Below are positions 6,701 to 39,391 of a DNA stretch of 42,751 nucleotides, piece after piece; the first letter of the stretch is position 1, and the number at the start of each line of letters is the position of its first letter. A model generated the notes under the pieces. The model did no database searches and was not told where the DNA came from. It worked only from the letters and a program-made list of their open reading frames with translations. The DNA is from a virus, in IMG/VR virus record IMGVR_UViG_3300035698_012139, positions 1 through 42,751 of that record. One strand, 5' to 3'. The translations under genes and the position numbers were made by a program.

Positions 6701-6953
6701 GCCCCCGGACCCGATCATCCGAGTAGAAGCGATTGTGGAGGCGGCGGGAAATTTGATCGGCTCCAAAGAGCATCGCTGACTCCGTGTCAGGTAGGCGGGA
6801 CCAAGCGCAGGGAGGAGCGACAACGGCAGGGTCCCGCCAGGCATCTCTGCCACCCATATCTTGTGCCATGGCTCCACGGGGCAATCAACTTTTAGGTTGA
6901 ACTTCCGCTTTCAGGTGATTTAACGTGTACGGGAACCAGGAGTTTTCGACGCG
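6701..6953 (+). promoter_or_regulatory. Leader with two AGGT-motif copies
   Basis: This 253-bp non-coding gap follows the integrase. It contains TCAACT-TTT-AGGTTGA (6885-6900), a near-palindrome, and a second related copy CTTTCAGGTGATTT (6908-6921). Both belong to the motif family seen before the decoration, tail-tube and endolysin genes. They lie 30-70 bp before the first gene of the packaging operon, where a promoter/operator is expected. Confidence 0.5.
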
Positions 6954-7205
6954 ATGACACGCACTGACGCGCAGCCACACGATGAACGAGACCTGGACCC
7001 GGATGCCGACTCCGATCTGGTTTTCCTGACGATGGACGACGTGGCCCAGCGCGTGGCGCTCTCTCGTCGCACGATTGAGACCTATATTGATTCGGGTCAG
7101 TTCCCCAAGCCGATCAAGCTGACCGAGCGCCGGATCGTCTTCATCCAGTCAGAGGTCGTTGCGTGGATGCGCCAGAAGATCGCAGAATGCCGGGGCGCAG
7201 CATGA
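6954..7205 (+). CDS. AlpA-like HTH regulator/excisionase
   Basis: This 83-residue protein has an acidic N-terminus (about 1-22) and a MerR-like winged helix typical of AlpA/HTH_17 proteins: TMDDVAQRVALSRRTIETYI, then FPKPIKLTERRIVFIQSEV and VVAWMRQKI. AlpA-type proteins act as excisionases or as activators of phage and satellite operons. It is the only obvious DNA-binding regulator in the prophage and heads the late operon, overlapping the next gene by ATGA, so it is the prime candidate for acting at the AGGT motifs. That link is inference. Confidence 0.75.
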   Translation: MTRTDAQPHDERDLDPDADSDLVFLTMDDVAQRVALSRRTIETYIDSGQFPKPIKLTERRIVFIQSEVVAWMRQKIAECRGAA

Positions 7206-7858
7206 GCGACATAGACGATTTCCTGACGGGCGATGACGACGCGCACGAAGAACCGCAGGCGCTTCCGCAGTCCCGCCGAGGCGTTCGGCAACAAGCAGGC
7301 ACGGTGGCCGACTCCACGGTCATCATGGCACTGGCCCGCCCGGTCTCGATCACCTTCCTGATGCAGGTGTGGGGGATGGACCGGAAAACCATCGTCAAGC
7401 GGCTTGCCGATCTGCCGCCGGTCGGACAGCACCGGGGGCAGCAGCCTCTCTATGACTTCCGCCAGGCCGCGCAGTACCTCGTTGTCCCTCGCGTCAACAT
7501 GGCTGAGTACATCAAGAAGGTCGGCATTGATGCGCTACCCGCCGCCCTCCAGGGCGATGCTTGGGACGCCAAGCTGAAATCCCAGAAGTGGAAAGAGAAG
7601 GCCGGAGAACTGTGGCCGACCGGCTCGGTGCTGGAGGTTCTGGGCGACACGTTCCAGCGGATCAAGACGACGACCCAGCTTTGGATCGACCAGCTATCCG
7701 AATCACATGCGCTCCCGGCCCCCGTGCGAATCGAACTGACCGGGATGGTGGACGCCCTCCAAACCGACATGCACCGATCCTTGGTCGAGATGCCGCAGGA
7801 AAAGGCCACGCTCTCCCAGCTTGGCGAAATCGAAGGAACGGAACTGGACGATGACTGA
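7202..7858 (+). CDS. DUF1441-type terminase small subunit
   Basis: The 218-residue protein starts at ATG 7202, overlapping the regulator stop. After an acidic, low-complexity N-terminus (1-45) it has an HTH-like segment, FLMQVWGMDRKTIVKRLADL, then GQQPLYDFRQAAQYLV, the pattern of DUF1441 proteins located before GpA-type terminases (lambda Nu1 role). These bind the packaging start site and hand DNA to the large subunit. The C-terminal half is helical and polar. Position four genes before the large terminase supports the call. Confidence 0.75.
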   Translation: MSDIDDFLTGDDDAHEEPQALPQSRRGVRQQAGTVADSTVIMALARPVSITFLMQVWGMDRKTIVKRLADLPPVGQHRGQQPLYDFRQAAQYLVVPRVNMAEYIKKVGIDALPAALQGDAWDAKLKSQKWKEKAGELWPTGSVLEVLGDTFQRIKTTTQLWIDQLSESHALPAPVRIELTGMVDALQTDMHRSLVEMPQEKATLSQLGEIEGTELDDD

Positions 7859-8033
7859 ACGGCACGCGGAGAACATGGCCGATAAGCTGGAGAACCTGCT
7901 GATCGGTATCGGGATGAATTGGGACACGGACGGGTTGTTCGATGATGCCCGGCTGGCGCTAGACCAGTTCCGAGCCGCGCCAGGGGAACGCGACAACGAA
8001 TATGAGCGGCAGCACCCGGAGTTTTTCACCTGA
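7851..8033 (+). CDS. Small phage protein, unknown
   Basis: This 60-residue acidic protein is not recognised. ATG 7851 overlaps the small-terminase stop by 8 nt and is preferred over an upstream in-frame ATG at 7821. No motif is visible; the sequence is soluble and mainly helical (MADKLENLLIGIGMNWD, then DDARLALDQFRAAP). It sits between the small terminase and the SLOG gene and shares TGATG with the latter. Confidence 0.6.
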   Translation: MTERHAENMADKLENLLIGIGMNWDTDGLFDDARLALDQFRAAPGERDNEYERQHPEFFT

Positions 8034-8362
8034 TGGGCGAGGTCGTCATCGTATGCGGTGGTCGAAACTACCGGGACAAGGCGTCCCTGTATGAGTTCAT
8101 GGATTCGCTCGATCCCATCTCGACCGTGGTGACCGGGGCCGCGCGCGGCGCTGATTTGATGGCGGACGAGTGGGCGCAAGACCGCCTCCTCTCCCGCGTC
8201 ATCGTTCCGGCGAACTGGGACGGCGAGGGCCGAGGTGCCGGGTTCAGCCGAAACGAACGGATGATCCGGCTCATCCAGCCGATCCACCGCGTCGCGGCGT
8301 TTCCGGGTGGCAACGGCACCCAGCACATGATCCGAACAGCCCGCGACCGGAACGTCCGGTGA
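8033..8362 (+). CDS. SLOG-family (DUF2493/YspA-like) nucleotide-binding protein
   Basis: This 109-residue protein has the SLOG Rossmann-like pattern: VVIVCGGRNYRDK at the N-terminus, VVTGAARGADLMADEWA in the middle and FPGGNGTQHMIRTA near the end. SLOG proteins bind nucleotides or nucleotide-derived ligands. Stand-alone DUF2493 proteins are frequent in phages and often of unknown role, some near conflict systems. ATG 8033 overlaps the previous stop (TGATG). Confidence 0.85.
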   Translation: MGEVVIVCGGRNYRDKASLYEFMDSLDPISTVVTGAARGADLMADEWAQDRLLSRVIVPANWDGEGRGAGFSRNERMIRLIQPIHRVAAFPGGNGTQHMIRTARDRNVR

Positions 8363-8400
8363 CAATCTTCAACCCGGAGATGTGGGGGATGCTGTCGTGA
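8359..8400 (+). CDS. 13-codon micro-ORF coupling two genes
   Basis: GTG at 8359 shares GTGA with the SLOG stop, and the TGA at 8398-8400 shares GTGA with the likely terminase start at 8397. The 13-residue product (MTIFNPEMWGMLS) has no recognisable function. Overlaps at both ends suggest a relay cistron that carries ribosomes from the SLOG gene to the terminase. Expression is unproven. Confidence 0.3.
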   Translation: MTIFNPEMWGMLS

Positions 8401-10490
8401 GCGCGCCCTTCGGTAGCCTGGAGCAGATGGTGCTGGCGACCGCTGAGGCGGTGCGCCCGCCGGAACGACTTACCGTCGCAGAGGCCGCCGAGAAATACCG
8501 CTATATCAACAACCCCGGCTCCTATGTCGGCAAGTTCAAGAACTCTGTCACGCCGTACCTGGTGCAGCCGATGGAGACGTTGTCCTCGGTGGACTTCACC
8601 GGCATGATCTTTGTCGGCCCGGCCCAAAGCGGCAAGAGCGACATGAGCCTGAACTGGCAGACGTACTCCGTCGTCTGCGATCCTGCCGATTTCATGCACA
8701 TCGACAAGGCCCAGGCCTCGGCCCGGGACTGGTATCAGCGCCGCGTGGAAAAGCTGTTCCGGGACACCAAGGCCGTGAAAGAACGGCTAATGCCCGGCGC
8801 GCACCACCAGTCCACATACTCGACGCGATTCACCTCCGGCATGCTCTACACGCTTTCCTGGCCGACCGTGAACGAACTGTCGGGTAAAGCGGTGGGCCGC
8901 CTCTGGCTCGCAGACTACGACCGGATGGACGAGGACGTGGGCGGAGAAGGTTCGCCCTACGACCTGGCCACGCAGCGCATGAAATCCTTTGGCCGGTTCG
9001 GCATGTGCGCCGCCGAGTCCTCGCCTTCGCGGGTCATCACCAACTCGCGTTGGCTGCCGCAGCACCCGCACCAGGCTCCGCCGACGACGGGTATCCTCGC
9101 CCTCTACAACCGAGGCGACATGCGGCGCTGGTACTGGCCGTGCCTCGCTTGCGGGGTTCCCTTTGAGCCGGATTTCAAGCTGTTCGATTGGCCCGACTGC
9201 GGTGAGGACCTGCTGGCGTCCGCCGAGCAGGTGGTGATGAAGTGCCCGCACTGCGATCACGCCTACCGGGACACGACCCACGATGAGTCCAACACCCCCG
9301 GCAAGCGTGGGATGAACCAGCGCGGGTTCTGGCTCCGCTCTGGCGAAGTCTACGACGCGGAGACCGGCGAGATCACCGGGACACCCATGCGATCCCGAAT
9401 CGCGTCGTTCTGGCTGAAAGGCCCGGCAGCGACGTTCGCGGACTGGACCGATATGACGCTCAAGTACCTCAAGGCGGTGCAGGAGTACGAGAACACCGGG
9501 TCCGAGGAAGCCCTGAAAACCACGACCAACACCGACCAGGGAGACGCCTACCTGCCCGCCGGAATCGAGGCCGAGCGTCTGCCGGAGGAGTTGAAAGCCC
9601 GCGCGCAAAACCTCGGCGACCGTGTGGTCCCGCCGGGCGTTCGGTTCCTGATCGCGACGATTGACGTGCAGGGCAACCGGACGGGCCGGTTCGAGTGCCA
9701 AATCCACGGCGTAATGCCGCACGGGGACATAGTGCCCATCGACCGGTTCAAGATCAGGAAGTCCGCCCGGCTGGATGAAGACGACGACCCCTTGCCCTTG
9801 AACCCCGGCTCCTACGTCGAGGACTGGCACCTGCTGATCGACAAGGTTCTGCTCAAGACGTACCCGCTCGGGGACAAGTCCGGTCGGTTGATGCAGATTC
9901 GCATGATGGCCGTAGACTCCGGCGGCGCGGACGGCGTGACCGCGAACGCCTATGAGTTCTACAGGCAGTTGAAAAAGGACGGGCGGAACCTGCACCGCCG
10001 CGTCCAGTTGCTCAAGGGTGAACCGCGCGACACCGCGCCTCTCGTGAGGATCGACTACCCTGACGCCGAGCGGAAAGACCGCCGTGCCCAAGCGCGCGGC
10101 GAAGTCCCTGTGATGTTCATCTGTTCCAACAAGATCAAGGACATGGTGAACAACATGCTGAACCGGACTGACCCCGGCGGCGGCATGGTCTACTTCCCGG
10201 ATTGGCTGCCCGATTGGTGGTATGTGGAACTCACGGCGGAGACCAAAACCGCGAAGGGCTGGAAGAACCCCGGCAACGCGCGCAACGAGGCGTGGGACCT
10301 TCTCTGCTACGCGATTGCGCTGCTCTACTCGTCGCGTATCCGGTTCCAGCACATCGACTGGGAGAACCCACCATCTTGGGCCGCAGAGTGGGATGACAAC
10401 GACATGGTGTGTCCTGCCTCCAACTTTCGGTTTGAACTTCAACCAAAAGGTGATAGTAAATTGCGAGACCTGGCGGAACAACTGGGCTGA
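8397..10490 (+). CDS. Terminase large subunit, lambda GpA family
   Basis: This 697-residue DNA-packaging motor cuts concatemers and translocates DNA into the prohead. The Walker A is GPAQSGKS (about 74-81), and an acidic LWLADYDRMDED lies near 169-180. Two CxxC pairs (CLAC and CPHC, about 248-285) form a probable zinc finger. The C-terminal nuclease has aspartates in ATIDVQGN (about 423), MMAVDSGG (about 506) and NEAWDLLCYA (about 630). GTG at 8397 is preferred because GGGGGA lies 7 nt upstream; the GTG at 8382 has its GGAG too close. It is the GpA-type neighbour of the DUF1441 protein. Confidence 0.93.
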   Translation: MSAPFGSLEQMVLATAEAVRPPERLTVAEAAEKYRYINNPGSYVGKFKNSVTPYLVQPMETLSSVDFTGMIFVGPAQSGKSDMSLNWQTYSVVCDPADFMHIDKAQASARDWYQRRVEKLFRDTKAVKERLMPGAHHQSTYSTRFTSGMLYTLSWPTVNELSGKAVGRLWLADYDRMDEDVGGEGSPYDLATQRMKSFGRFGMCAAESSPSRVITNSRWLPQHPHQAPPTTGILALYNRGDMRRWYWPCLACGVPFEPDFKLFDWPDCGEDLLASAEQVVMKCPHCDHAYRDTTHDESNTPGKRGMNQRGFWLRSGEVYDAETGEITGTPMRSRIASFWLKGPAATFADWTDMTLKYLKAVQEYENTGSEEALKTTTNTDQGDAYLPAGIEAERLPEELKARAQNLGDRVVPPGVRFLIATIDVQGNRTGRFECQIHGVMPHGDIVPIDRFKIRKSARLDEDDDPLPLNPGSYVEDWHLLIDKVLLKTYPLGDKSGRLMQIRMMAVDSGGADGVTANAYEFYRQLKKDGRNLHRRVQLLKGEPRDTAPLVRIDYPDAERKDRRAQARGEVPVMFICSNKIKDMVNNMLNRTDPGGGMVYFPDWLPDWWYVELTAETKTAKGWKNPGNARNEAWDLLCYAIALLYSSRIRFQHIDWENPPSWAAEWDDNDMVCPASNFRFELQPKGDSKLRDLAEQLG

Positions 10491-10501
10491 CGGAGAGCAA
10501 C

Positions 10502-10714
10502 GTGACCAACGCCGAAAAACTCACCGACGCAAAAACGCAATACCACCTGCTCGTCTCCGGGCAGGCTGCGAAAGTGTTTGTCGATCAGAACGGAGAGCGC
10601 ATCGAGTACGTCGCGGCCAACGCCGACAGGCTGTTGCGCTACATCGGCACCCTGGATCGCCTGGTCAACCCGACCGACAGCAACGCGCTGGCCCCGATGC
10701 GGATTCTGATGTGA
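10502..10714 (+). CDS. gpW-like head-tail connector
   Basis: This 70-residue protein has the gpW pattern: a helical start (LTDAKTQYHLLVSGQ), a short beta hairpin (AKVFVDQNGERIEYV) and a second helix (NADRLLRYIGTLDRLV). In lambda, gpW stabilises filled heads before tails join. It lies between terminase and portal exactly as lambda W does, and shares TGATG with the portal gene. Confidence 0.85.
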   Translation: MTNAEKLTDAKTQYHLLVSGQAAKVFVDQNGERIEYVAANADRLLRYIGTLDRLVNPTDSNALAPMRILM

Positions 10715-12405
10715 TGCTGGATAACGAAGCCCTGGAGATGCTGGGCGAAACACCGGAGACCCCGAGAATCGTGGCGTTCGACCGCGAAGTTCGTGAGATG
10801 CTGGGCGAGACCCTTCCTGACGAAAAAGCGATGGTCGGTGGTGCCTACGACGCGGTCAAGCGCAATGACCGGACGATGGCGCTGTGGAACCCGCCGCTGC
10901 GATCCGCTGATCGGGACATCATGCCCGACAAGAAGGGTCTCGACGCCCGCGCTCGCGATGTCATGCAGAACGACGCGTACGTCAAAGGCGGCGCGACGAT
11001 CTACCAGGACAGCATCGTTGGCTCCCTTTACGCGCTGAACGCCAAGCCTGCCCTTCGGGTTCTCGGCAAGTCCGTTTTCGATGACACCTGGGAGACCGAG
11101 TTCCAAGAGGAAGCCGAGGAGCGGTTCACGCTCTGGGCGGAATCGCCGGAGAACTGGGTGGACGCCTCGCGTCGGCAGACCTTCACGGAGATGGTCCGCC
11201 TGGCCACCGGAGTCCACGTCGCAGCCGGGGAGTCCCTGGCGTCGGTCGAGTGGCTGCGCGGCGGAGGTCGTCCGTTCAGCACGGCGATCCAATTCGTGGA
11301 CACCGACCGGCTCTCGAACCCTCCGCAGATGATGTTCGACCCCCGGGTCGTCGGCGGCGTCGAGAAGGACGCCTACGGCGCGGCCAAAGCGTACCATTTC
11401 CGCATGGTCCACCCTTCGGACTACTCGGTCACCGGAGAGAACTACAAGTGGCGTCGGGTCCCGGCCCGAAAGCCGTGGGGCCGTCTCCAGGTCCTTCACA
11501 TCTTCGAACGGACGCGCCCCGACCAGACGCGCGGCATCTCCGCGATGGTGTCGGCGCTCAAAGAAATTCGGATCACCAAGCAGTTCCGCGACGTGGCGCT
11601 GCAACAGGCGGTGGTCAACGCGACCTACGCGGCCAGCATCGAGTCCGATCTACCGAGCGCGGACGTGTTCGCGTCCCTCGGCGGCCAAGACAACCCGGCA
11701 GCGGCGATGGAAGCCTGGTCGGAAAACTACCTCGGCCAGATCGCAGCCTACACAGGCGGCGCGAAGAACCTGACGCTCGACGGCGTGAAGATTCCGCACC
11801 TGTTCCCGGGCACCAAACTTAACCTGCACCAGGCAGGCAAAGGTGCCCCGCTCGGCCAGGATTTCGAGCAGTCGCTTCTGCGCTACATCGCGGCCTCGCT
11901 GAACATCAGCTACGAGCAGCTTTCCAAGGATTACTCGGAGACCAACTACTCCAGCGCCCGCGCTGCGATGGCCGAGACCTGGAAGCACATGGACGCCATC
12001 AAGCGCATGGTCGCCGACCGGTTCGCCACCTCGGTCTACCGTCTGTGGCTGGAGGAGGTCGTCAACAAGAACCTGCTCGACACGATGCCTGCGGTCGCCA
12101 AGCAGCGCGGCTGGTTGTACGAGGCGCAGCGCCTTGACGCTCTGTCGCGTTGCGACTGGATCGGCGCATCGCGCGGCCAGATTGACGAACTGAAAGAGAC
12201 TCAGGCCGCGATCCTGCGTCTTCGCCACGGCCTGTCCACCCTGGAGATCGAATCCGGTCGCCTCGGCCAGGACTGGCGCGCCCTCACCCGGCAGCAGAAA
12301 CGTGAGATGGAAGCCCGCGTAGCCGCAGGGCTGCCCTTGTCGGTCGAAGACAACACGGTCAACGCGATCAGCGGCGACCCCCGCGAGCAAGACGGAGACA
12401 AATAG
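10714..12405 (+). CDS. Portal protein, lambda gpB family
   Basis: This 563-residue dodecameric portal forms the vertex for packaging and tail attachment. ATG 10714 overlaps the gpW stop and gives a start (MLDNEALEMLGET) after which family-like sequence follows: NDAYVKGGATIYQDSIVGSL, LQVLHIFERTRPDQTRGIS and YEQLSKDYSETNYSSARAAM, the last being strongly typical of lambda-type portals. Length fits gpB (533 aa). The stop is directly followed by the protease gene. Confidence 0.93.
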   Translation: MLDNEALEMLGETPETPRIVAFDREVREMLGETLPDEKAMVGGAYDAVKRNDRTMALWNPPLRSADRDIMPDKKGLDARARDVMQNDAYVKGGATIYQDSIVGSLYALNAKPALRVLGKSVFDDTWETEFQEEAEERFTLWAESPENWVDASRRQTFTEMVRLATGVHVAAGESLASVEWLRGGGRPFSTAIQFVDTDRLSNPPQMMFDPRVVGGVEKDAYGAAKAYHFRMVHPSDYSVTGENYKWRRVPARKPWGRLQVLHIFERTRPDQTRGISAMVSALKEIRITKQFRDVALQQAVVNATYAASIESDLPSADVFASLGGQDNPAAAMEAWSENYLGQIAAYTGGAKNLTLDGVKIPHLFPGTKLNLHQAGKGAPLGQDFEQSLLRYIAASLNISYEQLSKDYSETNYSSARAAMAETWKHMDAIKRMVADRFATSVYRLWLEEVVNKNLLDTMPAVAKQRGWLYEAQRLDALSRCDWIGASRGQIDELKETQAAILRLRHGLSTLEIESGRLGQDWRALTRQQKREMEARVAAGLPLSVEDNTVNAISGDPREQDGDK

Positions 12406-12406
12406 G

Positions 12407-13729
12407 ATGCTGCGGACCCCAGACCTGGGCCACATGCTGCTCAACGCCGAGCGCGTCGAATGGGCGGAGCAGACCGTGGCCGCGATGATGTCGCCTGCTG
12501 CGGACGCTCGCAGGGCCGAGATGATGGCCTACCACGAAGACGCCGACGCTGAGAACGATTTCTGGCGGAACGACGAACACTGGGCGCGTCCATACAACGT
12601 CGTGAACGGCACTCTCCTGATCCCTGTCCAAGGGATTCTGATGCACGGTTTCCCGTACCAGTTCGATGACATGGCGACCGGCTACGAGTACATCTGGGCG
12701 GCTGTTGTACGCGGGTTGAAAGACCCGGAGGTGAAACGGTTCGCGCTGGTGACGAACTCCCCCGGCGGCGACGTGACCGGTTTGTTCGACTTGGTGGATT
12801 TCCTCTACGAGGCCGCCCAGGAAAAACCGTTCATCGGAATCGCGGATGAGCATGCCTACTCGGCGGCGTACGCGATCATCTCGGTCGCCAAAGAGATCAC
12901 GGTCGCTCGCACGGGCGGCGTGGGCAGCATCGGCGTTCTGACCACACACACCGAGATCAGCGGCGCGCTTGCGCAGCGCGGGATCACGAAGACCCATATC
13001 TTCTCGGGCGCACAGAAGACCGACGGCAACTCGACCGAGCCGCTGTCCGACCGGGCCAAGGCGCACATGCAAGAGCGCGCCGATTATCTCTACGGTATTT
13101 TCGTTGCCATCGTGGCGCGGAACAGGGGGATGGACGAAGCAGCGGTGCGCGACACCGAGGCCGCGACCTACTTGCCCCCGCAAGCAATCGAAGCAGGTCT
13201 CGCGGACAAGATCGGCACTTTCGATGACACCATGTCTGCACTGGTCGAGACGACCAACAACCAAGAAAGGGACTACCACATGTCGAAAGACAAACTGCCC
13301 AGTGACCAGGCCGCTCTCGATGCACTCCTGGAAACTGCCCGCGCCGAAGGCGCTGCTACGGCCACAGCCACGGCGAACGAAACTTCCACGACCGCTGCTG
13401 CGGACGGCGCGAAGGCCGAGCGTACCCGGATCAGCACGATCCAGGGCAGCGAAGCCGCCAAGACCCGCCCGGCTGCGACCGCCCACGCTGTCAAGAGCGG
13501 CATGACCGTCGAAGACGCCGAGGCGTTTCTGGCCGGGATGCCCTCGGAGAAAACCGAGACGCAGGAATCCGGCGCGACGTTCGAGGCTGCGATGAATGGG
13601 ACCGAGAACCCGAACCTGGGTGAAGGCGAAGATGGCGGCAGCAAGGATGACAAGAAAGACAAGGCCGCAGCGGTCGTGTCGCGCGTCCAGGCCCTCGGTC
13701 TTTCGGGGTTCAAGCCAGCCAAGGCCTGA
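12407..13729 (+). CDS. Prohead protease, S49 (gpC-like) with C-terminal scaffold
   Basis: The 440-residue protein has an S49/ClpP-fold protease domain (about 60-285). The likely nucleophile is S152 (EHAYSAAY) and the general base K204 (GAQKTDGN), the SppA-like Ser-Lys pair. NSPGGDVTG and TGGVGSIGV are further S49 landmarks. The C-terminal 149 residues are charged, Ala-rich and scaffold-like, as in lambda gpC. The protease matures the prohead by cleaving scaffold and portal. An internal start at 13280 probably yields the free scaffold. Confidence 0.92.
   Translation: MLRTPDLGHMLLNAERVEWAEQTVAAMMSPAADARRAEMMAYHEDADAENDFWRNDEHWARPYNVVNGTLLIPVQGILMHGFPYQFDDMATGYEYIWAAVVRGLKDPEVKRFALVTNSPGGDVTGLFDLVDFLYEAAQEKPFIGIADEHAYSAAYAIISVAKEITVARTGGVGSIGVLTTHTEISGALAQRGITKTHIFSGAQKTDGNSTEPLSDRAKAHMQERADYLYGIFVAIVARNRGMDEAAVRDTEAATYLPPQAIEAGLADKIGTFDDTMSALVETTNNQERDYHMSKDKLPSDQAALDALLETARAEGAATATATANETSTTAAADGAKAERTRISTIQGSEAAKTRPAATAHAVKSGMTVEDAEAFLAGMPSEKTETQESGATFEAAMNGTENPNLGEGEDGGSKDDKKDKAAAVVSRVQALGLSGFKPAKA
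13280..13729 (+). CDS. Nested scaffold protein (Nu3-like), internal start
   Basis: Within the protease gene, ATG 13280 is in frame and follows an AGAAAGG ribosome-binding site (about 13264-13270) at workable spacing. The product (MSKDKLPSDQAALDAL onward, 149 residues) is hydrophilic and Ala/Thr/Lys-rich with a conserved-looking C-terminal end (VVSRVQALGLSGFKP), the profile of lambda Nu3. Lambda makes Nu3 in just this way from the 3' part of C. Confidence 0.6.
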   Translation: MSKDKLPSDQAALDALLETARAEGAATATATANETSTTAAADGAKAERTRISTIQGSEAAKTRPAATAHAVKSGMTVEDAEAFLAGMPSEKTETQESGATFEAAMNGTENPNLGEGEDGGSKDDKKDKAAAVVSRVQALGLSGFKPAKA

Positions 13730-13749
13730 TCCGTTTTTCTGAAACTATC

Positions 13750-13769
13750 TTCATCTGAAAGGTGAAACT
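13750..13769 (+). promoter_or_regulatory. AGGTGAA dyad before the decoration gene
   Basis: TTCATCT-GAA-AGGTGAA is an imperfect palindrome (7-3-7) in the 59-bp gap after the protease. It is not the ribosome-binding site, since ACGGAGAC lies closer to the ATG at 13789. The same motif with one changed spacer base recurs at 17265. It is probably a promoter or operator feeding the head genes. Confidence 0.55.
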
Positions 13770-13788
13770 CAACCTACGGAGACCTTAA

Positions 13789-14190
13789 ATGGCTACTATC
13801 CCTAACCAATACGCCGACCCGGGGCGGGCCGCTTTCGAAGAACTGGACACTTACACCCAGACCTTCCTGCTGGCCGGCAACCACCCCGAGTTGTCGCAAC
13901 CGTTCAGCTACCCGTGCGCGGCTGGCGCGTCCATCGAGCAGTTCGCGGTCGTCGGCCTGGATGTCTCGGGCGACCTGACCCTCGCCACCTTCGACAAGGT
14001 GGTCCAGGCCATCGGCGTCGTGGCGCAGTCGTTCGACAACGCCGCCGTTGGCACCGCTCCGGTGTTCTACCAGGGCGCATTCAACATCGACGCGCTTGTG
14101 TGGGACGCCTCGTTCGACACTGACGCGAAGAAGTTGGCCGCCTTCGCAGGCGCTCCGACCCCCACCCAGATCATCTGCGCAAAACGCTAA
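13789..14190 (+). CDS. Head decoration protein, gpD-like
   Basis: This 133-residue protein sits between protease and major capsid, the lambda D position, and has the size and beta-rich composition of gpD homologues. YPCAAGASIEQFAVVGLDVSGDLTLATFD and APVFYQGAFNIDALVWD are the recognisable parts. The trimer clamps expanded capsids. It is preceded by its own AGGTGAA motif. Confidence 0.8.
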   Translation: MATIPNQYADPGRAAFEELDTYTQTFLLAGNHPELSQPFSYPCAAGASIEQFAVVGLDVSGDLTLATFDKVVQAIGVVAQSFDNAAVGTAPVFYQGAFNIDALVWDASFDTDAKKLAAFAGAPTPTQIICAKR

Positions 14191-14249
14191 ACGGAACCCC
14201 TGCCTGACCGCCGAGCGCGGAAAATGGAAATTGAGAAAGAGGACTTACC

Positions 14250-15344: not shown

Positions 15345-15373
15345 CGGCAGCCAGGACCACCACTACCGCCTCA

Positions 15374-15408
15374 GGGGATCACCGATCCTCGGGGGCGTTC
15401 CACCCCCC
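15374..15408 (+). other. Tandem hairpins after the capsid gene
   Basis: GGATC-ACC-GATCC (15376-15388) and GGGGG-N7-CCCCC (15391-15407) follow each other in the 94-bp gap after the capsid stop. No U-run follows, so RNA stabilisation or partial attenuation is more likely than full termination. Confidence 0.4.
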
Positions 15409-15438
15409 AACAAATCCATACCGTGAGGAAGCAACCCC

Positions 15439-15771
15439 ATGTCGAAACTTGGCTACACGATCCACAAGATCACCCAAAACCCGCCCCTGGCACCCAAGGC
15501 CGTCGCGGAGTTCTCGGACGAAGCGTTCGCGGAACTGAAAAAGCTGGGCGCGATTCGCGTTCCGACCGAAGACGAAGTGGCGATGTACGAGCAGGTTCAG
15601 GCCCGGAAGTCCAAGCCTGCCGCCAAGCCCGCCGCGAAACCTGCTGCCGCGAAGAAGGTTTCCAAAGCGAGCAAACCGAAGACCGACGCTGACGCTGACG
15701 TTGCCAACGCTGCCGCTGCGGCTGCCGCGCCTGCCGCGCCTGCGTCGGAAACTGACGGCCTGCTCGACTGA
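15439..15771 (+). CDS. Head accessory protein, gpFI position
   Basis: This 110-residue protein has a structured N-terminus (MSKLGYTIHKITQNPPLAP to about 55) and a low-complexity C-terminus of Lys/Ala/Pro then Ala-rich repeats (AAKPAAKPAAAKK). It lies where lambda has FI, which aids packaging at the capsid-terminase interface. Sequence similarity to FI itself is not evident, so the role is positional inference. Confidence 0.55.
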   Translation: MSKLGYTIHKITQNPPLAPKAVAEFSDEAFAELKKLGAIRVPTEDEVAMYEQVQARKSKPAAKPAAKPAAAKKVSKASKPKTDADADVANAAAAAAAPAAPASETDGLLD

Positions 15772-15772
15772 T

Positions 15773-16147: not shown

Positions 16148-16148
16148 C

Positions 16149-17257: not shown

Positions 17258-17264
17258 CCCGGCT

Positions 17265-17284
17265 TTCATCTGTAAGGTGAATAT
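17265..17284 (+). promoter_or_regulatory. AGGTGAA dyad before the tail-tube gene
   Basis: TTCATCT-GTA-AGGTGAA lies in the 50-bp gap before the tail-tube gene and matches the 13750 site in 14 of 14 arm positions. A separate ribosome-binding site (AAAGAGGAA) follows, so this motif is not needed for translation. Probable promoter/operator. Confidence 0.55.
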
Positions 17285-17307
17285 TAACTCAAAAGAGGAA
17301 TAACGAC

Positions 17308-18081: not shown

Positions 18082-18122
18082 TCCGGCACCTGAACTCAGC
18101 CCACACATAGGAGGAGCAACCT

Positions 18123-18596: not shown

Positions 18597-18622
18597 ACGA
18601 CTGGGTCGCGGGCCTGCGGGAG

Positions 18623-18832: not shown

Positions 18833-18833
18833 G

Positions 18834-23432: not shown

Positions 23433-23433
23433 C

Positions 23434-24627
23434 ATGGCGCAGATTCTCGAAAGGATCGGTCGGATCGCCGTGACGCAACCGGACTGGCGCAGCCCCGTTC
23501 AGGTCGCGTTCGAGTTCAAGACGTGGGTGGGCGAATCCTACGACGGCACCGAGACTCGTGACGCGCTGCGCACCCGCGCCCGGGTGGAACTGGAGTTCCG
23601 GTCGCTTCTGACGGCTGCCGGTATCCGGCGGCACCAGGCCGATCTGTCGGAGTCTATCCACGCGCCCTTCATTCTTCAATCGCCCTGGCGTGAGGCTGCG
23701 CTGGCCGCTGACGTTGCGGCCTTCGCGAACACGATCACGATCACAAGCCCACCGGTCTGGGTCGCACCCGGGGCGCACCTCATCGTAGAGTCAGATACCC
23801 GGCAAGAGGCGGTGGAGGTCACCAGCGTTACGGGGGACGTGGTGACCCTGGTGAACCCTATCGAGTGGGATTTCTCTGCTGGAGGCAAGGTGCGCCACGC
23901 CTACATGGCGCGAGCAGCCGAGACGGTGGACTTCCGCGCGGAGACCTCGAACCTGTGGTCAGGCAACGTCGAATATCGCGCCGACCCGGGCACCGATCCG
24001 CAGTCCTACGCACCCGCGACCCCGGAGACGTTCGAGGGCGTTGAAGTTTTCCTGACGAAGCCGAACTGGCGGGAGAAGCCCCGCCTCACCTTCGCGGAAA
24101 CGCGCGAGACGAGCGACAGCGGGCGCGGCGTGATCGAGACCGAATCCCGCACGGGCTACGTGACGTTGCGAGAAAACCTGGAGTTCCTTGGGGCCAACAC
24201 CGAGGCCGCCGAGGCGCTGATTGCGTTCTTCCTCCGCCAGAAGGGCCGTCGCGGTTCGTTCTGGATGCCGACCTGGCAGAGCGACCTGGCCGCCGTCGAG
24301 AACCCCGTCGCCGTCAGCGCTTTCGATGTGCAGGGGGTTGACGCCTTCTACGCCTACAACGGTTCGCCGGTCTTCAATGTCGTGATCGCGCACGGCTCAG
24401 ACGGGTCCCACCAGCTAAACCGCGTCACCGGAGTCGCTCTGAACGGTGTGAACACCACGTTCACCTTCGCAGACGACTGGACGGTTGCTGTCACGACCGA
24501 GACCCGGCTGTCGTGGTGCCCACGTTGGCGGTTCGCAGCCGACCGGCTGGAGGTGAACTGGCGCTCGAACGCAGTCGCCGAGACGACGTTTTCCCTAATG
24601 ACATTGCCGAACGAGGAGCCTGTCTGA
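23434..24627 (+). CDS. Distal/minor tail protein
   Basis: This 397-residue protein follows the tape measure, the lambda M or distal-tail position. It is beta-rich with Trp motifs (TQPDWRSPVQVAFEFKTW, KPNWREKPRLTF) and ends in LEVNWRSNAVAETTFSLMTLP. Repeated WR-type strands around residues 19 and 211 suggest an internal duplication. It shares TGATG with the next gene. Family is not certain. Confidence 0.6.
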   Translation: MAQILERIGRIAVTQPDWRSPVQVAFEFKTWVGESYDGTETRDALRTRARVELEFRSLLTAAGIRRHQADLSESIHAPFILQSPWREAALAADVAAFANTITITSPPVWVAPGAHLIVESDTRQEAVEVTSVTGDVVTLVNPIEWDFSAGGKVRHAYMARAAETVDFRAETSNLWSGNVEYRADPGTDPQSYAPATPETFEGVEVFLTKPNWREKPRLTFAETRETSDSGRGVIETESRTGYVTLRENLEFLGANTEAAEALIAFFLRQKGRRGSFWMPTWQSDLAAVENPVAVSAFDVQGVDAFYAYNGSPVFNVVIAHGSDGSHQLNRVTGVALNGVNTTFTFADDWTVAVTTETRLSWCPRWRFAADRLEVNWRSNAVAETTFSLMTLPNEEPV

Positions 24628-25544
24628 TGGCGTTCAGCGACTACGAAAATGCGCGGGAGCGCGGACAGCCGGTCGAACTGTTCCAGTTCACCTACGGCGT
24701 TGAGGCCGACGGCGAGACGCCGATCTACTACGCCTACACGGACGGCGAGGACGAGATCGAGCATGACTCGATCATCTACAAGCCGTTGCCGGGCCTCGTC
24801 CGGTCGAAGTTCGAGAGCAAGGGGAAACTGGGGGCGAACGAGGTTCGTGTGACCGTGCCCCGGGACTCCGAGGTTTCCGATCTGTTTCGAATCTACCCCC
24901 CGGGCCGGGTGGTCACCGTCGCGATCCGCCAAGGACACGTGCCCGGCGAGACAGACCCGGCGAGTTGGCTGCTGGGCGAGAGCTTCCCCGTGGCCTGGCT
25001 GGGTCGGGTGCTGGAAGCCTCGCGCACCGGTTCCAAGACCGTTCTTGTGTGCGAGGCGTCGAGCGCGTCCATGAAACGCCCCGGGCTTCGTCGGCACTAC
25101 CAATGGCCCTGCGGCCTGGTTCTCTACGGCGAGCGGTGCCAGGCCAACAAGGCAGCGGCGACCACGGCCTCCACGGCCTCCGTCATCAGCGGCAACGCCG
25201 TCACGCTTTCGGGGACCTGGCAGAAGCAGGTGCCCGTTGATGTCGAGGACCCGGGCGGCGCGCAGACGGACGTGGGCGCGTCCTACTACACTGGCGGGTT
25301 GCTGGAGTGGGACGGGCCGCTCGGGCGCGAGCGACGGTCGATCCTGCGCGTGAGCGGCACCGACATCCTGATCCTGGCCGGGCCTGCGACGAACCTGGAG
25401 GTGGCCGGAGCGGTCGAGGTCAGCCTGGGCTGTCCTCACACCCTGACGGACGGCTGCACGTACCTGCACGACAACGCGGTCAACTACGGCGGGCACCCCT
25501 TCATCCCCGCCAACAACCCGCTCAACCAGAACAACCACACGTAA
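24627..25544 (+). CDS. Tail-tip protein (gpL/BR0599-like), probable Fe-S site
   Basis: The 305-residue protein starts at ATG 24627 on the overlapping stop. The N-terminal part (1-150) is a beta domain with SKFESKGKLGANEVRVTVP. The C-terminal part has four spaced cysteines: C162 and C171 (WPCGLVLYGERC) and C269 and C277 (LGCPHTLTDGC), followed by a GGHPFIPANNP end. This is the pattern of lambda gpL and of phage_BR0599/GTA hub proteins; lambda gpL is known to bind an iron-sulfur cluster. A hub role at the tail tip fits its place before J. Confidence 0.75.
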   Translation: MAFSDYENARERGQPVELFQFTYGVEADGETPIYYAYTDGEDEIEHDSIIYKPLPGLVRSKFESKGKLGANEVRVTVPRDSEVSDLFRIYPPGRVVTVAIRQGHVPGETDPASWLLGESFPVAWLGRVLEASRTGSKTVLVCEASSASMKRPGLRRHYQWPCGLVLYGERCQANKAAATTASTASVISGNAVTLSGTWQKQVPVDVEDPGGAQTDVGASYYTGGLLEWDGPLGRERRSILRVSGTDILILAGPATNLEVAGAVEVSLGCPHTLTDGCTYLHDNAVNYGGHPFIPANNPLNQNNHT

Positions 25545-25553
25545 GGCGCGATT

Positions 25554-25790
25554 ATGGCATTTTTCGCCACCCTACTGGTCAGCCTGGTCCTCCAGGTCAT
25601 CGGCTACATGCTCATGCCCAAGCCGAAGAAGCCGAAGCCGCTTTCGGTCGATGACCTCAAGGACCCTACGGCGGAAGCTGGGCGACCGATCCCGGTGGTC
25701 TTCGGCAGCCTGACCGTGAAAGGCCTCAACATCCTCTGGTACGGCGACAAAGACATCCATCTCCGCAAGGCGTCGGGAGGCAAGAAATGA
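25554..25790 (+). CDS. Small tail-tip protein with membrane-like N-terminus
   Basis: This 78-residue protein begins with a hydrophobic segment (FFATLLVSLVLQVIGYML) and a Lys/Pro stretch, then APTAEAGRPIPVVFG-like sequence (TAEAGRPIPVVFGSLTVKG) common to small proteins encoded just before J in this phage group. Position resembles lambda I. Specific role unknown. It overlaps the next gene by ATGA. Confidence 0.65.
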   Translation: MAFFATLLVSLVLQVIGYMLMPKPKKPKPLSVDDLKDPTAEAGRPIPVVFGSLTVKGLNILWYGDKDIHLRKASGGKK

Positions 25791-25990
25791 CCGACGTAGT
25801 GACGATCCACCACTGCCGGAAGGGGGGCTACTGCGTCTCGGGTGTCAAGAAGCACTGCAAGACGCTGGGCCTGGACTTTGTCCGCCTCGTGAAAACCGGA
25901 ATCCCGATTTCGGAAATCGAACATCTGAACGACGCAATCGTGCAGCGGTGCATCGGCATCGCCCGCGCAGAGGAGGCTGACAATGGGTAG
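25787..25990 (+). CDS. Small Cys-containing tail-cluster protein, unknown
   Basis: This 67-residue protein has four cysteines (C10, C16, C24, C55) in HHCRKGGYCVSGVKKHC and later sequence. GLDFVRLVKTGIPISEIEHLNDAI is a pattern recalled from small genes between hub and J in related phages. No function is assigned. It overlaps both neighbours (ATGA at the start, 8 nt at the end). Confidence 0.65.
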   Translation: MTDVVTIHHCRKGGYCVSGVKKHCKTLGLDFVRLVKTGIPISEIEHLNDAIVQRCIGIARAEEADNG

Positions 25991-28811
25991 CGGCAAAAAA
26001 GGCGGACGCGAGGTCTACGACTTCCTCATGTCCATCCACTATGGAATCTGCCACGGGCCGATTGACTCCATCAACCGGGTCACCGTGAAGCAGAAAAACG
26101 TCCTCTGCGGAGCCTACCAGGGTCGCCAAGACGTGTCGGTCGATCAGCCGGAGTTGTTCGGCGGTGACAACGGCGAGGGCGGCGCAGTTGGGGTCGCGGA
26201 AATCTACATGGGCACGGATGATCAGGTCTCCTCGGAGTCCCTGGCCTCCCGTTTCAGCCTCACGCCGACCTCCATGCCGGGCTATCGCGGCCTGGCGAGC
26301 ATCTTCTTCCGAGGTGCCGGGGCCTTCGGCTTCCGCTGGACCTCCAACAACCCGTACCTGCCGCCTGCGGAGATCAGCGTGACACGTCTGCCGCGCACTC
26401 TGAACGACTCCACCGCGCTAATCTATCCGTTCTCCCACTACGAGGACGAGACCGGCGCAGGGATCAACGACCCGGTCGCTTTTCAGGACTTCCTGTTCCA
26501 GCCGGAGCCGACGACGGGCCTCGTGGACTTTCTTGTCACCGACCAAACTTTCGATCTGACCACGATGATGACGCCCGCCCGCATCGCCTCGGGCCTCGGT
26601 CGCGTCGTCGTTCGGAACAGCGCCTACGCGAAGCACCGGTTCAGCGGCGCGGAAACGCAGGGCGATCTGACCGCTAACTGCTACTACTACACCGAGACGG
26701 ACGGCACCGGCACGAATTTGACGACCAACTCGACGCCCTCGGTTTTTGTGGCGGAGGGCTACGGCCAGGTCGATCTGGAACTGATCTCCCCCATCCCGGC
26801 GGGCGCTCGCTCGGTGCGGATCAAGACCAGTCAGGAACTCCTGTTTCCCTTCTTCGCCGACTGGATCGACATCGAAACCTACGGAGAAATCCACGCAAAC
26901 GCGGGCGACCTTCTGCCCACGTCCCACTGCGACGTTGACGGCGAGGGCCTGGCGCTGCTCCCCAACGCCAACCCGGCGCACATTATCCACGAGTGCCTGG
27001 TGAACGCTGAATGGGGAAAGGGGGAAGACCCTCTGAACATCGACGTGGACTCCTTTGAATCTGTGGCGCAAACCTTGGTGGACGAGTTCTTCGGCCTCTC
27101 CATGATGTGGGCGCGCCAGGCGGAGATCGAGGCTTTCGTGCAGGAGGTCCTGGACCACATCCAGGCGATGCTGTTCCTGCACCCTGCGACCGGCAAGTGG
27201 ACCCTCAAGCTGCTGCGCGGTGACTACGACGCCGAGGCCGCGCCGTTGCTGGACCCGTCGAACTGCAAGGCGATGAGCCGCCGCAGGAAAGGCTGGGGCG
27301 AGACCATCAACGAGATCGTCGTTGAATACACCGATCCTCGCACCGAGGAACCGGCCACGCTGACGGCGCACAACCTGGCGAACATCGCGATCCAGGGCGA
27401 AACCATTTCGGAGACGCGGTCCTACTACGGCGTCCGTGACCCGTGGCTCGCGCAAGTCATCGCCGACCGCGACGTGCAGGCGTCGGGGCACCCGCTTTTC
27501 GCCTGCCGTGTCGAAGCGGAACGCGTGGCGCGGTTGACCGTGCCGGGAGACGTGTTCCGGCTCTCATGGCCGGAGGACGGGATCGAGAACATCCTGGTCC
27601 GCGTGACCGGCGTAGACTACGGGACCGCGCAGAAGCGGACGGTCACGTTGGATGTCGTGGAAGACGTGTTCAGCCTCGAAAAGACCGCCTACAGCAACGT
27701 CCAGAAATCCGAGTGGGTGACCGATCGGTCTCGCGCGGTGCCGTTGACTGCTGAGACCGCAATCACCGTGCCGCTCCCTGTCGTCCTACGGAACGGAGCC
27801 AGCCTGACCGACGTTGACGATGCGTACCCTGGAGTCGCCGTTGCGCTGCTCGGCATGCACGACACCTCGCGGTTCAGTGAGTTCGAGGCTCGCGCCGCCG
27901 TCACCAAGCCGAACGGCTCCGTCGTGGTGGAGGCGATCACCAACGTCCCGCCGACCCGGGCGGTCCTGACGGAATCTGTCTGGGAACTTGAGCCCTCAAC
28001 GGTGGTAGCGGGCAGCCTGTTCGCGACCCTGACGTTCGCCACGGCCTCGGAGGGTGATTTCTTCCTGCTCGGGGACACCGACGCTCTGCACGAAGTCGTC
28101 ATGCTCGACAGCTACGACGAGGGTGCAGACGAATGGACGGTGGCGCGGGGGCTGTACGACACGGTGCCGCTCCGCTGGCCCGGGGCTACCCGGCTTTGGG
28201 TCTTCCCGGAAGATGTGTCGCGCACCGATCCGACTGAGCGCGCCGCAGGGGAAACCACGACCTACCGCTTCCTGCCGCGCACCTCCGAGGGCCGCCTGGC
28301 CTACGAAGATGCGGCGGACGTGGTCCACACGGCGACGGCACGACCCCACCTGCCCTTCCGGCCCGCCGACTGTCAGATCGACGGCAACGGGTTTGACCTG
28401 GCCGACTACTCCCAGGTCCCCCGACCGGTCACCGTCACGGCCACTTGGGTCGAGCGGAACCGGGCTATCGAAGACCAGGTTGCGCTGCGCTGGGACGACA
28501 TAACTGCGACCCCGGAAGTCGGTCAGACAACCGTTTTGGTGATCGTTGACGAGTACGGCGTTGAGCAGAACGAGGTCACCGGCCTGACGGGCACCAGCTA
28601 CGCGCTGACCACGGCGGATTTCGCGCTAGTCCAGTACGGACACGTCGCTTTCTATTCGGATCGCGATGGCCTCCGGTCGTTGAAAGCGGCGCAGCGTTGG
28701 TTCGACTTCCGCCAAGGCGGCTGGGGCAACTCCTGGGGTGAGGGCTGGGACGGACGTGAGATCGGCTACGGGAACAACTGGGGAGGCGGCTGGGGCCAAG
28801 GCGTAGAGTAA
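25983..28811 (+). CDS. Tip attachment protein J-like
   Basis: This 942-residue central tail-tip protein has a J-type N-terminus (YDFLMSIHYGICHGPIDSI), a middle tail-hub region (DEFFGLSMMWARQAEIEAFV, VVEYTDPRTEEPATLTAHN, RVEAERVARLTVPGD) and C-terminal fibronectin-like beta domains (about 780-900). The last 30 residues are Gly/Trp-rich (GGWGNSWGEGWDG onward), an unusual tail that may bind the next fibre component or the host surface. ATG 25983 overlaps the previous gene by 8 nt. It likely governs host recognition and DNA release. Confidence 0.85.
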   Translation: MGSGKKGGREVYDFLMSIHYGICHGPIDSINRVTVKQKNVLCGAYQGRQDVSVDQPELFGGDNGEGGAVGVAEIYMGTDDQVSSESLASRFSLTPTSMPGYRGLASIFFRGAGAFGFRWTSNNPYLPPAEISVTRLPRTLNDSTALIYPFSHYEDETGAGINDPVAFQDFLFQPEPTTGLVDFLVTDQTFDLTTMMTPARIASGLGRVVVRNSAYAKHRFSGAETQGDLTANCYYYTETDGTGTNLTTNSTPSVFVAEGYGQVDLELISPIPAGARSVRIKTSQELLFPFFADWIDIETYGEIHANAGDLLPTSHCDVDGEGLALLPNANPAHIIHECLVNAEWGKGEDPLNIDVDSFESVAQTLVDEFFGLSMMWARQAEIEAFVQEVLDHIQAMLFLHPATGKWTLKLLRGDYDAEAAPLLDPSNCKAMSRRRKGWGETINEIVVEYTDPRTEEPATLTAHNLANIAIQGETISETRSYYGVRDPWLAQVIADRDVQASGHPLFACRVEAERVARLTVPGDVFRLSWPEDGIENILVRVTGVDYGTAQKRTVTLDVVEDVFSLEKTAYSNVQKSEWVTDRSRAVPLTAETAITVPLPVVLRNGASLTDVDDAYPGVAVALLGMHDTSRFSEFEARAAVTKPNGSVVVEAITNVPPTRAVLTESVWELEPSTVVAGSLFATLTFATASEGDFFLLGDTDALHEVVMLDSYDEGADEWTVARGLYDTVPLRWPGATRLWVFPEDVSRTDPTERAAGETTTYRFLPRTSEGRLAYEDAADVVHTATARPHLPFRPADCQIDGNGFDLADYSQVPRPVTVTATWVERNRAIEDQVALRWDDITATPEVGQTTVLVIVDEYGVEQNEVTGLTGTSYALTTADFALVQYGHVAFYSDRDGLRSLKAAQRWFDFRQGGWGNSWGEGWDGREIGYGNNWGGGWGQGVE

Positions 28812-28890
28812 CAAAAACGAAATCGCCTGGCAGACGAGGGTTAGCGGAGAACGCAGCTCGCGCAGGCAGCAACCAAAAAGGAATGGAACT

Positions 28891-29544
28891 ATGGCAGGTG
28901 AACGCGAACTTCCGGGGCTGGGCTTTCGGGCTTACTGGACTCCCGGATCGAAGGGCTGGGGCGATCAGCGCAGCGAAGACATCCGATTGACCTCGGTGCT
29001 TCTGCAAGGCCGGGCCAAGTCACGGACGACTGTGCTGCCCGGCGCGCCGGTCCTTGGGGACGTGTATATCGTTCGCAGCGACGACGGCTCGAACCCGGAT
29101 GAGATCGCGATCTGGGACGGCGAGGTCGGGTTCGAGGCGTGGGTCTACGTCGTACCGCAGACCGGTTGGAAGCTGTACGTCATTGACGACGCCCAGCACG
29201 TCGAGAAGTTGGCCACCGGCTGGACTCCTTTCCAGCAGACCGTGGTAGACGCGGCTGAAACCGCCGCGTTCAACGTCACTGACACGCACTTCAAGGGCAA
29301 CCGGATCAAACCGGTGAACTTCGCGACCGATCTGGACATCACCGTCCCGGCGGGCCTCACCGGGAAAGAGCCGTGTACTTTCATCTCGACCGGCGCGGGC
29401 ATCCCGACTTTCGTTGCGGGCGGCGGCGTGACGATCATCTCGGCGGAAGTGCGCGTGAAGATCAGGACGACTGGCTCGTCCGCGACCCTGATCCCTGCGG
29501 GCGTAGCGGACACTTACTACCTGGTCGGAGACATTGAAGCATGA
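28891..29544 (+). CDS. DUF2793-like tail accessory protein
   Basis: The 217-residue protein has a DUF2793-like N-terminal domain (about 30-120: PVLGDVYIVRSDDG, then GFEAWVYVVPQTGWKLYVIDD) followed by a beta-repeat-like C-domain (about 125-217, FNVTDTHFKGNRIKPVN). DUF2793 proteins are found next to J in Rhodobacterales phages and GTA-like clusters. Surface or fibre role is inferred. It overlaps the next gene by ATGA. Confidence 0.6.
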   Translation: MAGERELPGLGFRAYWTPGSKGWGDQRSEDIRLTSVLLQGRAKSRTTVLPGAPVLGDVYIVRSDDGSNPDEIAIWDGEVGFEAWVYVVPQTGWKLYVIDDAQHVEKLATGWTPFQQTVVDAAETAAFNVTDTHFKGNRIKPVNFATDLDITVPAGLTGKEPCTFISTGAGIPTFVAGGGVTIISAEVRVKIRTTGSSATLIPAGVADTYYLVGDIEA

Positions 29545-30869
29545 GCATGCAAGCACTTATGGGTTCGGTCTCTATGTCGATCCTCGCGGAGCTGGGCGGC
29601 GGTCCAGTCGCCGTGGAACCGTACCTCGACCCCACCTATACGCCGCCGCAATACACCATTGACGGTAACAACGCGACGGCTGACACGACCATCCTCAGTG
29701 GCTTTGTCCCTGCGTCGTTCCCCTGTGCCGGGCGGTCGTATTTCGAGGTCGAGGTCGTCAACCAGGTCGGCAACGCCTCGTGCATCGGAGTCGCCCTTGT
29801 GAGCCAGCGAAGCAACTACCCGAGCGGCGGCAACCCGATGGCCTACCCGGACGGCGTCCAGCTTCAAGGAAACGACAACGTCGCGTCCAACGGCACGTCT
29901 TATGGCGCGTCAGGCCTCGGCGCGTGGTCCAACGGCGATATCATCATGTGCGCGGTCAACCACACGAACGGGCGCATTTATTTCGGGCGGAACGGAACCT
30001 GGCACGTGGATCCGACGAACGCTGCCTCGTCTACCCGGGTGCTGACGACCAAGGGGGGCGAATACTACTTCTGCCTGTCTCCCACCGAGACAGGATGTTC
30101 TTACACCGCCCGGTTCGTCGCCTCGGCGTTCACCTACCCGATCCCCGTGGGGTACAAAGCCGCCCGGGCCGCCTACGACGACATCAACGGCACTGTCGCA
30201 GGTGTAGGCACCGACCCCTACTGGGACGACGTTGTGTTCCTCGCCGGTTGGGATGGAGCCGATGCCTCGCAACCTGCGACCGACGAAGGCCCGAACGCGG
30301 TTCCGCTCACCTATGTCGGAGCGCTCTGTGCAACGGACACGGCCCAGGCTCCGGCTGGGGGAGACTCCACCGGCTCGCTCTACGTGGAATCCGGGGACTA
30401 TCTGACGTTCGCAGGGTTGGACATCGGCATCCTGGCCGGGGACTTCACTGTCGAGTTCCACATCCGGTTCGACACGTTCTCCAGTTGGGACGGCCCGATG
30501 GGCGACTTCGACACGAACGACTCGGGATCGTGGGGTTTCCTGCGCAACGGCTCTACGAACGAGATCATCTTCGTTGTGAAGAACACGGCGCTCGACTTCT
30601 TCGGCCCGGTGCTCGCCGTCGATACCGACTACCACATTGCGGTGTCGCGGTCGGGCCTCACGACGCGCATGTTCGTCAACGGTGCGCTGGAGAAGACGGT
30701 CACGGAGACGTACCAGGCTGCGATCAACGCACGGCTCGTCACCAACTACGTCGGTCGCAACGAGTTCGGTGATCCGATGCACGGCTGGTTCGATGAACTT
30801 CGGATCACGAAAGCGGCTCGCTACGCCGCCGCGTTCACCGCGCCCACGGGCCGATTCCCGCGCGGCTGA
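29541..30869 (+). CDS. Receptor-binding candidate with SPRY and LamG-like domains
   Basis: This 442-residue protein has two lectin-like modules. Residues about 55-195 resemble a SPRY domain (RSYFEVEVVNQVGNASCIGVAL, GDIIMCAVNHTNGRIYFG). Residues about 225-440 resemble a concanavalin/LamG fold (FTVEFHIRFDTFSSWDG, YHIAVSRSGLTTRMFVNG, HGWFDELRITKAARY). Last in the tail block, it is a good candidate for the glycan- or surface-binding protein. Confidence 0.7.
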   Translation: MSMQALMGSVSMSILAELGGGPVAVEPYLDPTYTPPQYTIDGNNATADTTILSGFVPASFPCAGRSYFEVEVVNQVGNASCIGVALVSQRSNYPSGGNPMAYPDGVQLQGNDNVASNGTSYGASGLGAWSNGDIIMCAVNHTNGRIYFGRNGTWHVDPTNAASSTRVLTTKGGEYYFCLSPTETGCSYTARFVASAFTYPIPVGYKAARAAYDDINGTVAGVGTDPYWDDVVFLAGWDGADASQPATDEGPNAVPLTYVGALCATDTAQAPAGGDSTGSLYVESGDYLTFAGLDIGILAGDFTVEFHIRFDTFSSWDGPMGDFDTNDSGSWGFLRNGSTNEIIFVVKNTALDFFGPVLAVDTDYHIAVSRSGLTTRMFVNGALEKTVTETYQAAINARLVTNYVGRNEFGDPMHGWFDELRITKAARYAAAFTAPTGRFPRG

Positions 30870-30900
30870 CCCGCAAAAAGACGGCAATAAAGAGCCTAGT

Positions 30901-30946
30901 CCAGACCAGTCAACCGTGACGTGTAGCTTGCGGGTGACTGGTCTGG
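30901..30946 (+). terminator. Long hairpin after the tail operon
   Basis: CCAGACCAGTCA (30901-30912) and TGACTGGTCTGG (30935-30946) are perfect 12-bp arms around a 22-nt loop, just before the next AGGT-type motif. There is no U-run, so a factor-dependent terminator or RNA-processing hairpin is likely rather than an intrinsic terminator. Confidence 0.5.
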
Positions 30947-30953
30947 CCAGATT

Positions 30954-30974
30954 ATCATCTTTAGGCTAAAATAT
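30954..30974 (+). promoter_or_regulatory. Degenerate AGGT-type motif before the lysis genes
   Basis: ATCATCT-TT-AGGCTAAAA resembles the sites at 13750 and 17265 with two changed arm bases and a shorter spacer. It follows the hairpin and precedes the endolysin ribosome-binding site, the place expected for the lysis promoter. Confidence 0.4.
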
Positions 30975-38628: not shown

Positions 38629-38629
38629 C

Positions 38630-38980: not shown

Positions 38981-39013
38981 TACGCCTTGCTCACTCGTTG
39001 AGATGTTCGGTAT

Positions 39014-39341: not shown

Positions 39342-39391
39342 ACGCCATTCTTACGATTTTTCACTGATAAGTTTCAGTGACTTGGGTCGTC

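Follow-up and report, generated by a model that had tools for sequence, protein, structure and literature searches.

A dispersed 15-bp palindrome in an apparently truncated Casjensviridae prophage and its temperate relatives: putative operators and a candidate reader

The prophage and its palindromic sites

The window, that is, the whole stretch of DNA analysed here (42,751 nucleotides; IMG/VR record IMGVR_UViG_3300035698_012139), holds a prophage in Rhodobacterales-like DNA with his genes. The prophage begins at a tRNA-Tyr (5225-5308), and its genes comprise those for integrase, AlpA, terminase, portal, protease, decoration, capsid, tail tube, tape measure and lysis proteins, together with a DNA methyltransferase on the minus strand (Table 1). 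From about 36.2 kb on there are genes for a ParA-like ATPase, an MqsA-like antitoxin and a UvrD helicase, and this region to the right of the prophage (36248-42736) is possibly an island. Neither a gene for R24, the regulator described below, nor a right-end att repeat was found in the window, and no replication genes were recognised in its prophage. Because all of these are missing, positions 5225-36000 are read as a truncated Casjensviridae prophage, which would have retained the integrase and late genes and lost the early module and the repressor. Between the tail and lysis genes lies an inverted repeat (30901-30946) with 16-nt arms that are 94% complementary and are not followed by a T run.

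A preliminary description of this sequence had proposed that a motif, TTCATCT-N3-AGGTGAA, recurs before the phage transcription units, with near-identical partial palindromes at 13750 and 17265. The recurrence is confirmed by a scan of the window, which gave nine matches with at most three mismatches against 1.81 expected, nine being reached in none of 100 shuffles. The copies at 13750 and 17265 match the motif exactly, and each does occupy an intergenic gap, the first ahead of the decoration gene and the second ahead of the tail-tube gene. What recurs is a 15-bp palindrome, TCA(M)-N7-(K)TGA, of which the window holds four strong sites and one decayed site; on the scale of Table 1, the match that comes next after the four scores 9.9. 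When a matrix built from the relatives only is used, the sites at 35801 and 10439 are the top window matches, while those at 13751 and 17266 rank lower because of the T at position 4. Other parts of the description had to be revised. Not all copies are intergenic, since the one at 10439, missing from the original list, sits inside the 3' end of terL; the weak copy reported near 35779 has its true site 22 bp away, at 35801; and among the related copies, the one in the 6903/6904 region stands as a degraded site, with 6885, 30954 and 35779 rejected as members because they do not fit the family motif, 6885 having the wrong spacing.

Table 1. Features of the window; operator scores come from a family matrix partly trained on the same four strong sites.
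Feature	Position	Strand	Remarks
Tyrosine integrase	5504..6700	+	Adjoins the tRNA-Tyr
-35-like TTGAAC, alpA/packaging promoter	6897..6902	+	17-bp spacer to -10-like TTAACG (6920-6925)
Degraded operator TCCGCTTTCAGGTGA	6904..6918		In the alpA promoter spacer; score 6.9; position of the relatives' conserved alpA-promoter palindrome
AlpA-family protein (PF05930)	6954..7205	+	First gene of the packaging operon; 5.8e-11
-35-like TTGAAC	10432..10437	+	From sequence; class I position -7
Putative operator TCAACCAAAAGGTGA	10439..10453		terL 3' end, before gpW/portal, within a promoter spacer; score 19.1
-10-like TAGTAA	10454..10459	+	From sequence; spacer 16 bp
Putative operator TCATCTGAAAGGTGA	13751..13765		Precedes head decoration gene; exact match; score 22.4; no -35 in register
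Putative operator TCATCTGTAAGGTGA	17266..17280		Precedes tail tube gene; exact match; score 22.4
-10-like TATAGT	35792..35797	-	From sequence; adjoins the 35801 operator; relatives show a TA peak at +4 after the palindrome
Putative operator TCAATTGAAAAGTGA	35801..35815		Upstream of minus-strand DNA methyltransferase; score 21.7; top window match with the relatives-only matrix

The site at 13751 has no counterpart before the decoration gene of the nearest relative, L003 (capsid 80% identical). At the tube-gene position, a palindrome is present in about 93% of 44 relatives; L003 reads TCACCTGTAAGGTGA there, and its copy before the tail tube gene, TTCACCTGTAAGGTGAT, is a more perfect palindrome than that of the window. 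The 10439 site lies in identical register in L069, L072 and L075.

The palindrome in related phages

A genome scan with the window capsid alone returned nothing and an alignment-based scan gave relatives; capsid protein searches yielded 81 viral and 6 bacterial loci as well as named Casjensviridae phages. The relatives fetched via the capsid gene are Casjensviridae, mostly from Alphaproteobacteria. The motif search in related prophages that had been suggested at the outset recovered the same palindrome de novo, independently at three unrelated places, namely upstream of the tube gene (44 non-redundant regions; WTCACGTTATAAGTGA; log-likelihood 281 versus 49-54 for shuffled regions), upstream of alpA (28 regions; TTGAATGTCACGTTAAAAG; 237 versus 62-67) and after terL (53 regions; TCACTTTAAAAGTGA; 212 versus 45-50), using our own implementation of expectation maximisation (EM) and four to five shuffles each. 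Downstream of the protease, decoration and capsid genes, the EM search returned coding sequence, start codons or weak motifs. In the alpA promoters of the relatives, the palindrome fills the spacer from the -35 (TTGAAT) to the -10 (TAT...); at the tube gene, the right half of the palindrome is frequently broken. A terminator-like hairpin stands immediately before the tube-gene operator in L047, L063 and L064.

Copies are not confined to these places. Eighteen genomes or large fragments each have their own version of the site, for instance TCACATCnGATGTGA in RcCWillis, TCAACN5GTTGA in AchV4 and TCAATTTAAAATTGA in G044, with 5 to 28 sites; a temperate relative that is complete has about 10-28 copies of its version. 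For AchV4, the version was built from a manual seed of three palindromes, since the generic matrix matched only 3 times against 1.8 expected; elsewhere, matrix matches numbered 4-24 in sixteen IMG/VR relatives, whose records are possibly fragments, and 15 in RcCWillis, where at most 2 were expected. These counts come from matrices that were rebuilt several times, with score thresholds (12-14) chosen by eye, and the collection of sites per phage began from a matrix biased to TCA...TGA. At homologous places, sites are more alike within a phage than between phages (permutation p = 0.0004). In RcCWillis (68.8 kb, 7.2% intergenic), 15 of the 19 sites scoring above 10 are intergenic (binomial p = 2e-14), mostly no more than about 50 bp before a gene and in both the early and the late regions. 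The intergenic claim rests on this annotated genome, because our simple gene caller places 177 of 382 site centres inside its coding mask.

With respect to promoters, the 382 sites together show one TTGA[CA] maximum at -7/-8 and another at -16 to -18, and the strict class I and class II arrangements occur at 34 and 12 of them, versus 11 and 2 of 5400 random positions. Several early RcCWillis sites show TTGACT-17 bp-TAGATG with the palindrome containing the -10. Thus, judged by sequence, some copies in the relatives would occupy the -35/-10 spacer, or overlap the -10, of putative σ70-type promoters. The palindrome had initially been suggested to be either a phage promoter or an operator. As a promoter in itself it is not supported, since no recognisable -35/-10 stands in register with 336 of the 382 copies. 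The motif is most likely a phage regulatory element, an operator tied to transcription units.

R24 and AlpA as candidate readers

R24 (RCCWILLIS_24), a CI-like regulator encoded beside the integrase, was present in each of the seven temperate genomes with the motif that were compared at first and missing from pCB2051-A, and was later found in 18 of the 18 relatives compared. The palindrome is enriched in 20 of 20 genomes with R24 versus none of seven without it, two of which have AlpA, a tally that pools two enrichment measures, in which matches in genomes without R24 were called background by judgement and for which R24 was chosen after its presence or absence in the first genomes had been seen. 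Lifestyle is confounded with R24, since the genomes lacking it are also non-temperate and phylogenetically apart. Named phages with R24 gave 17, 20, 29 and 11 matches versus 3, 1, 3 and 0 in the control (29 and 11 in RHph_X2_30 and RcRios), and six without it (phiWae15, which has AlpA, Phobos, SLP-22, Seifer, S-ESS1 and Saba) gave 2-11 versus 0-3. The matches in phages without R24 have mostly GC-rich, codon-like cores, although by this crude pattern S-ESS1 (11 versus 2), pCB2051-A (8 versus 2) and phiWae15 (6 versus 0) stand above the control. By the matrix, pCB2051-A, which carries AlpA and no annotated integrase, has 2 copies versus 1.2 expected, and no palindrome of its own was seen by a simple search.

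The R24 gene is itself flanked by the palindrome. Among R24 loci fetched without reference to the capsid, a loose pattern places a copy upstream, within about 180 bp, in 15 of 16 (expected, by our estimate, at about 0.19 per case) and a strict pattern does so in 10 of 16 (p = 4e-16), and a second copy is often found just downstream; this sample is only partly independent, because L200, L202, L207, L210, L214 and L215 are contigs used before. Of five distant HTH homologues, just one has a loose match upstream.

PHROG 2967, annotated as transcriptional regulator, matches 16 of 16 R24 members. The best PDB sequence matches are TP901-1 CI and a LexA-type HTH, none significant alone (best E 0.012), and the Pfam match of the HTH is below cut-off; in a structural model (pLDDT 85.7, pTM 0.57), the HTH domain matches CI and EspR. 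For the C-terminal part, Pfam gave no match, and by fold it matches PD-(D/E)XK nucleases weakly (best E 4e-4, TM about 0.34). R24 is thus predicted to be a CI-like protein with an XRE-type HTH and a C-terminal domain, the match of its HTH to CI being weak in both sequence and fold. In the R24 of L202 (10001-10672), the C-terminal domain resembles the I-Ssp6803I and Hjc folds in a model search.

AlpA, named in the preliminary description as a possible regulator, was the first candidate binder, because in most relatives whose sequence covers this place its gene immediately precedes terS. An AlpA that binds the palindrome and activates or autoregulates the packaging operon and other units would fit the position of alpA as first gene of that operon, with the palindrome in its promoter spacer in nearly all relatives, and a PF05930 AlpA, that of EcCICFT073, activates its own promoter (PMC6092414). 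A first Mantel test, limited to at most three sites per phage (n = 12), also points to AlpA (r = 0.47, p = 0.002), with r = 0.06 for R24 (0.14, p = 0.2, at n = 16). On the other hand, a second Mantel test on genome-wide consensus sites (n = 18) gave r = 0.30 (p = 0.016) for the R24 HTH, and 0.27 (p = 0.025) given AlpA, versus 0.165 (p = 0.043) for AlpA, which falls to a non-significant 0.11 (p = 0.13) given R24; the two tests disagree, the measure changed between them and the p values are uncorrected for the number of tests. More weight is given to the second, which draws on a much larger number of sites. In the recognition helix of R24, a Ser/Thr difference is associated with a C in position 5 of the site (Fisher p = 0.03), a pattern spotted post hoc. 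Nor does the site accompany AlpA (PF05930) everywhere: pCB2051-A and phiWae15, with AlpA and without R24, lack clear enrichment and look like background, and all genomes with R24 are enriched. AlpA was dropped as first-choice binder after these counts and the genome-wide test; given also that the sites span early genes and flank R24, its being the reader is unlikely. The AlpA genes of Rhodobacter capsulatus RcD phages (OP009268.1, 23351-23536, and RcD-cluster relatives) are annotated "excise", that of RcCWillis as hypothetical.

Antitermination of the Pseudomonas aeruginosa type was set aside as well. The AlpA of that species is an antiterminator with a Q-like fold (PMC9371919), and its binding element, GGGACG-N5-GGTA, lies between -35 and -10 (PMC7969949), a position like that of the palindrome but with a different sequence. 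The reported protein fold differs, and P. aeruginosa AlpA was not among the matches of a PDB sequence search with the window AlpA; from these two observations, we infer that the window PF05930 protein and P. aeruginosa AlpA are probably unrelated.

The sites might also serve a CI/Cro-type pair, in which R24 would act during lysogeny and a second small HTH protein during lytic growth; several small HTH genes do lie in the early region of RcCWillis, and weak homologues of one of them, located beside the primase, occur in most temperate relatives, but their conservation is weak and incomplete, and we regard such a pair as improbable. As for the palindrome being an RNA element (a 5' hairpin) or a promoter for an unusual σ factor or polymerase, its symmetry and, at the tube gene, a short spacing to the ribosome-binding site that varies rather little could be so explained, but the broken right halves argue against it, as does the alpA-promoter copy, which would stay untranscribed because it sits between -35 and -10. 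That explanation appears very remote.

Probable dispersed operators and known systems

Since the copies both track R24 and flank its gene, the repeats are probably the operators of a dispersed prophage-silencing system, of which R24 would be the putative reader in intact relatives. Acting as an immunity repressor, R24 would bind the roughly 10-28 phage-specific 15-bp palindromes, which are spread across early as well as late genes and lie on either side of the R24 gene. Initiation would be blocked wherever the bound palindrome occupies the -35/-10 spacer or covers the -10. At the promoter-less copies, whose number permits such an effect, R24 binding may block elongation, like the stoperators of mycobacteriophage L5, and the sites are perhaps partly stoperator-like. 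Other regulators could share them. In the window, the prophage has retained four good operators and one decayed one, and seems to have lost the repressor and early genes.

Repressors of the L5 type bind at least 20 asymmetric 13-bp sites, which belong to promoters or, as stoperators, stand in gaps (PMC9283540, PMC6550527). As in L5/Cluster A, where there are 20 or more phage-specific sites genome-wide, the sites of the relatives are numerous, lie in promoters and short intergenic gaps, differ in version among related phages and include one near the repressor gene; the window itself keeps the four strong copies only. However, in L5 a monomer binds asymmetric sites of 13 bp that follow the direction of transcription, whereas those described here are 15-bp palindromes, hence without a fixed orientation. 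The nearest palindromic case is the actinophage phiC31, with a repressor that has conserved inverted repeats as sites; its operators are likewise dispersed in intergenic regions, although its host group differs. With CI of TP901-1 and lambda, R24 shares the XRE-type HTH, the palindromic operators and sites beside the repressor gene, but CI operators are few and clustered, and the C-terminal domain of R24, with its weak nuclease-fold matches, sets it apart.

The kind of system is therefore a known one, while the sites and the repressor of this phage family appear to be undescribed in the open-access papers searched; the genome paper on the R. capsulatus RcD phages nowhere mentions a promoter, palindrome or motif. 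As a tentative and rather doubtful generalisation, temperate Casjensviridae may silence their prophages through a stoperator-like palindrome network with an undescribed type of repressor (XRE HTH plus a PD-(D/E)XK-like domain) and a site version of their own in each phage. If the dispersed-operator reading is true, it would explain why intergenic motifs recur in isolates such as the RcD phages, the immunity groups of these phages would be readable from sequence, and dispersed-operator silencing, best known from mycobacteriophages, would also hold for a large set of proteobacterial phages.
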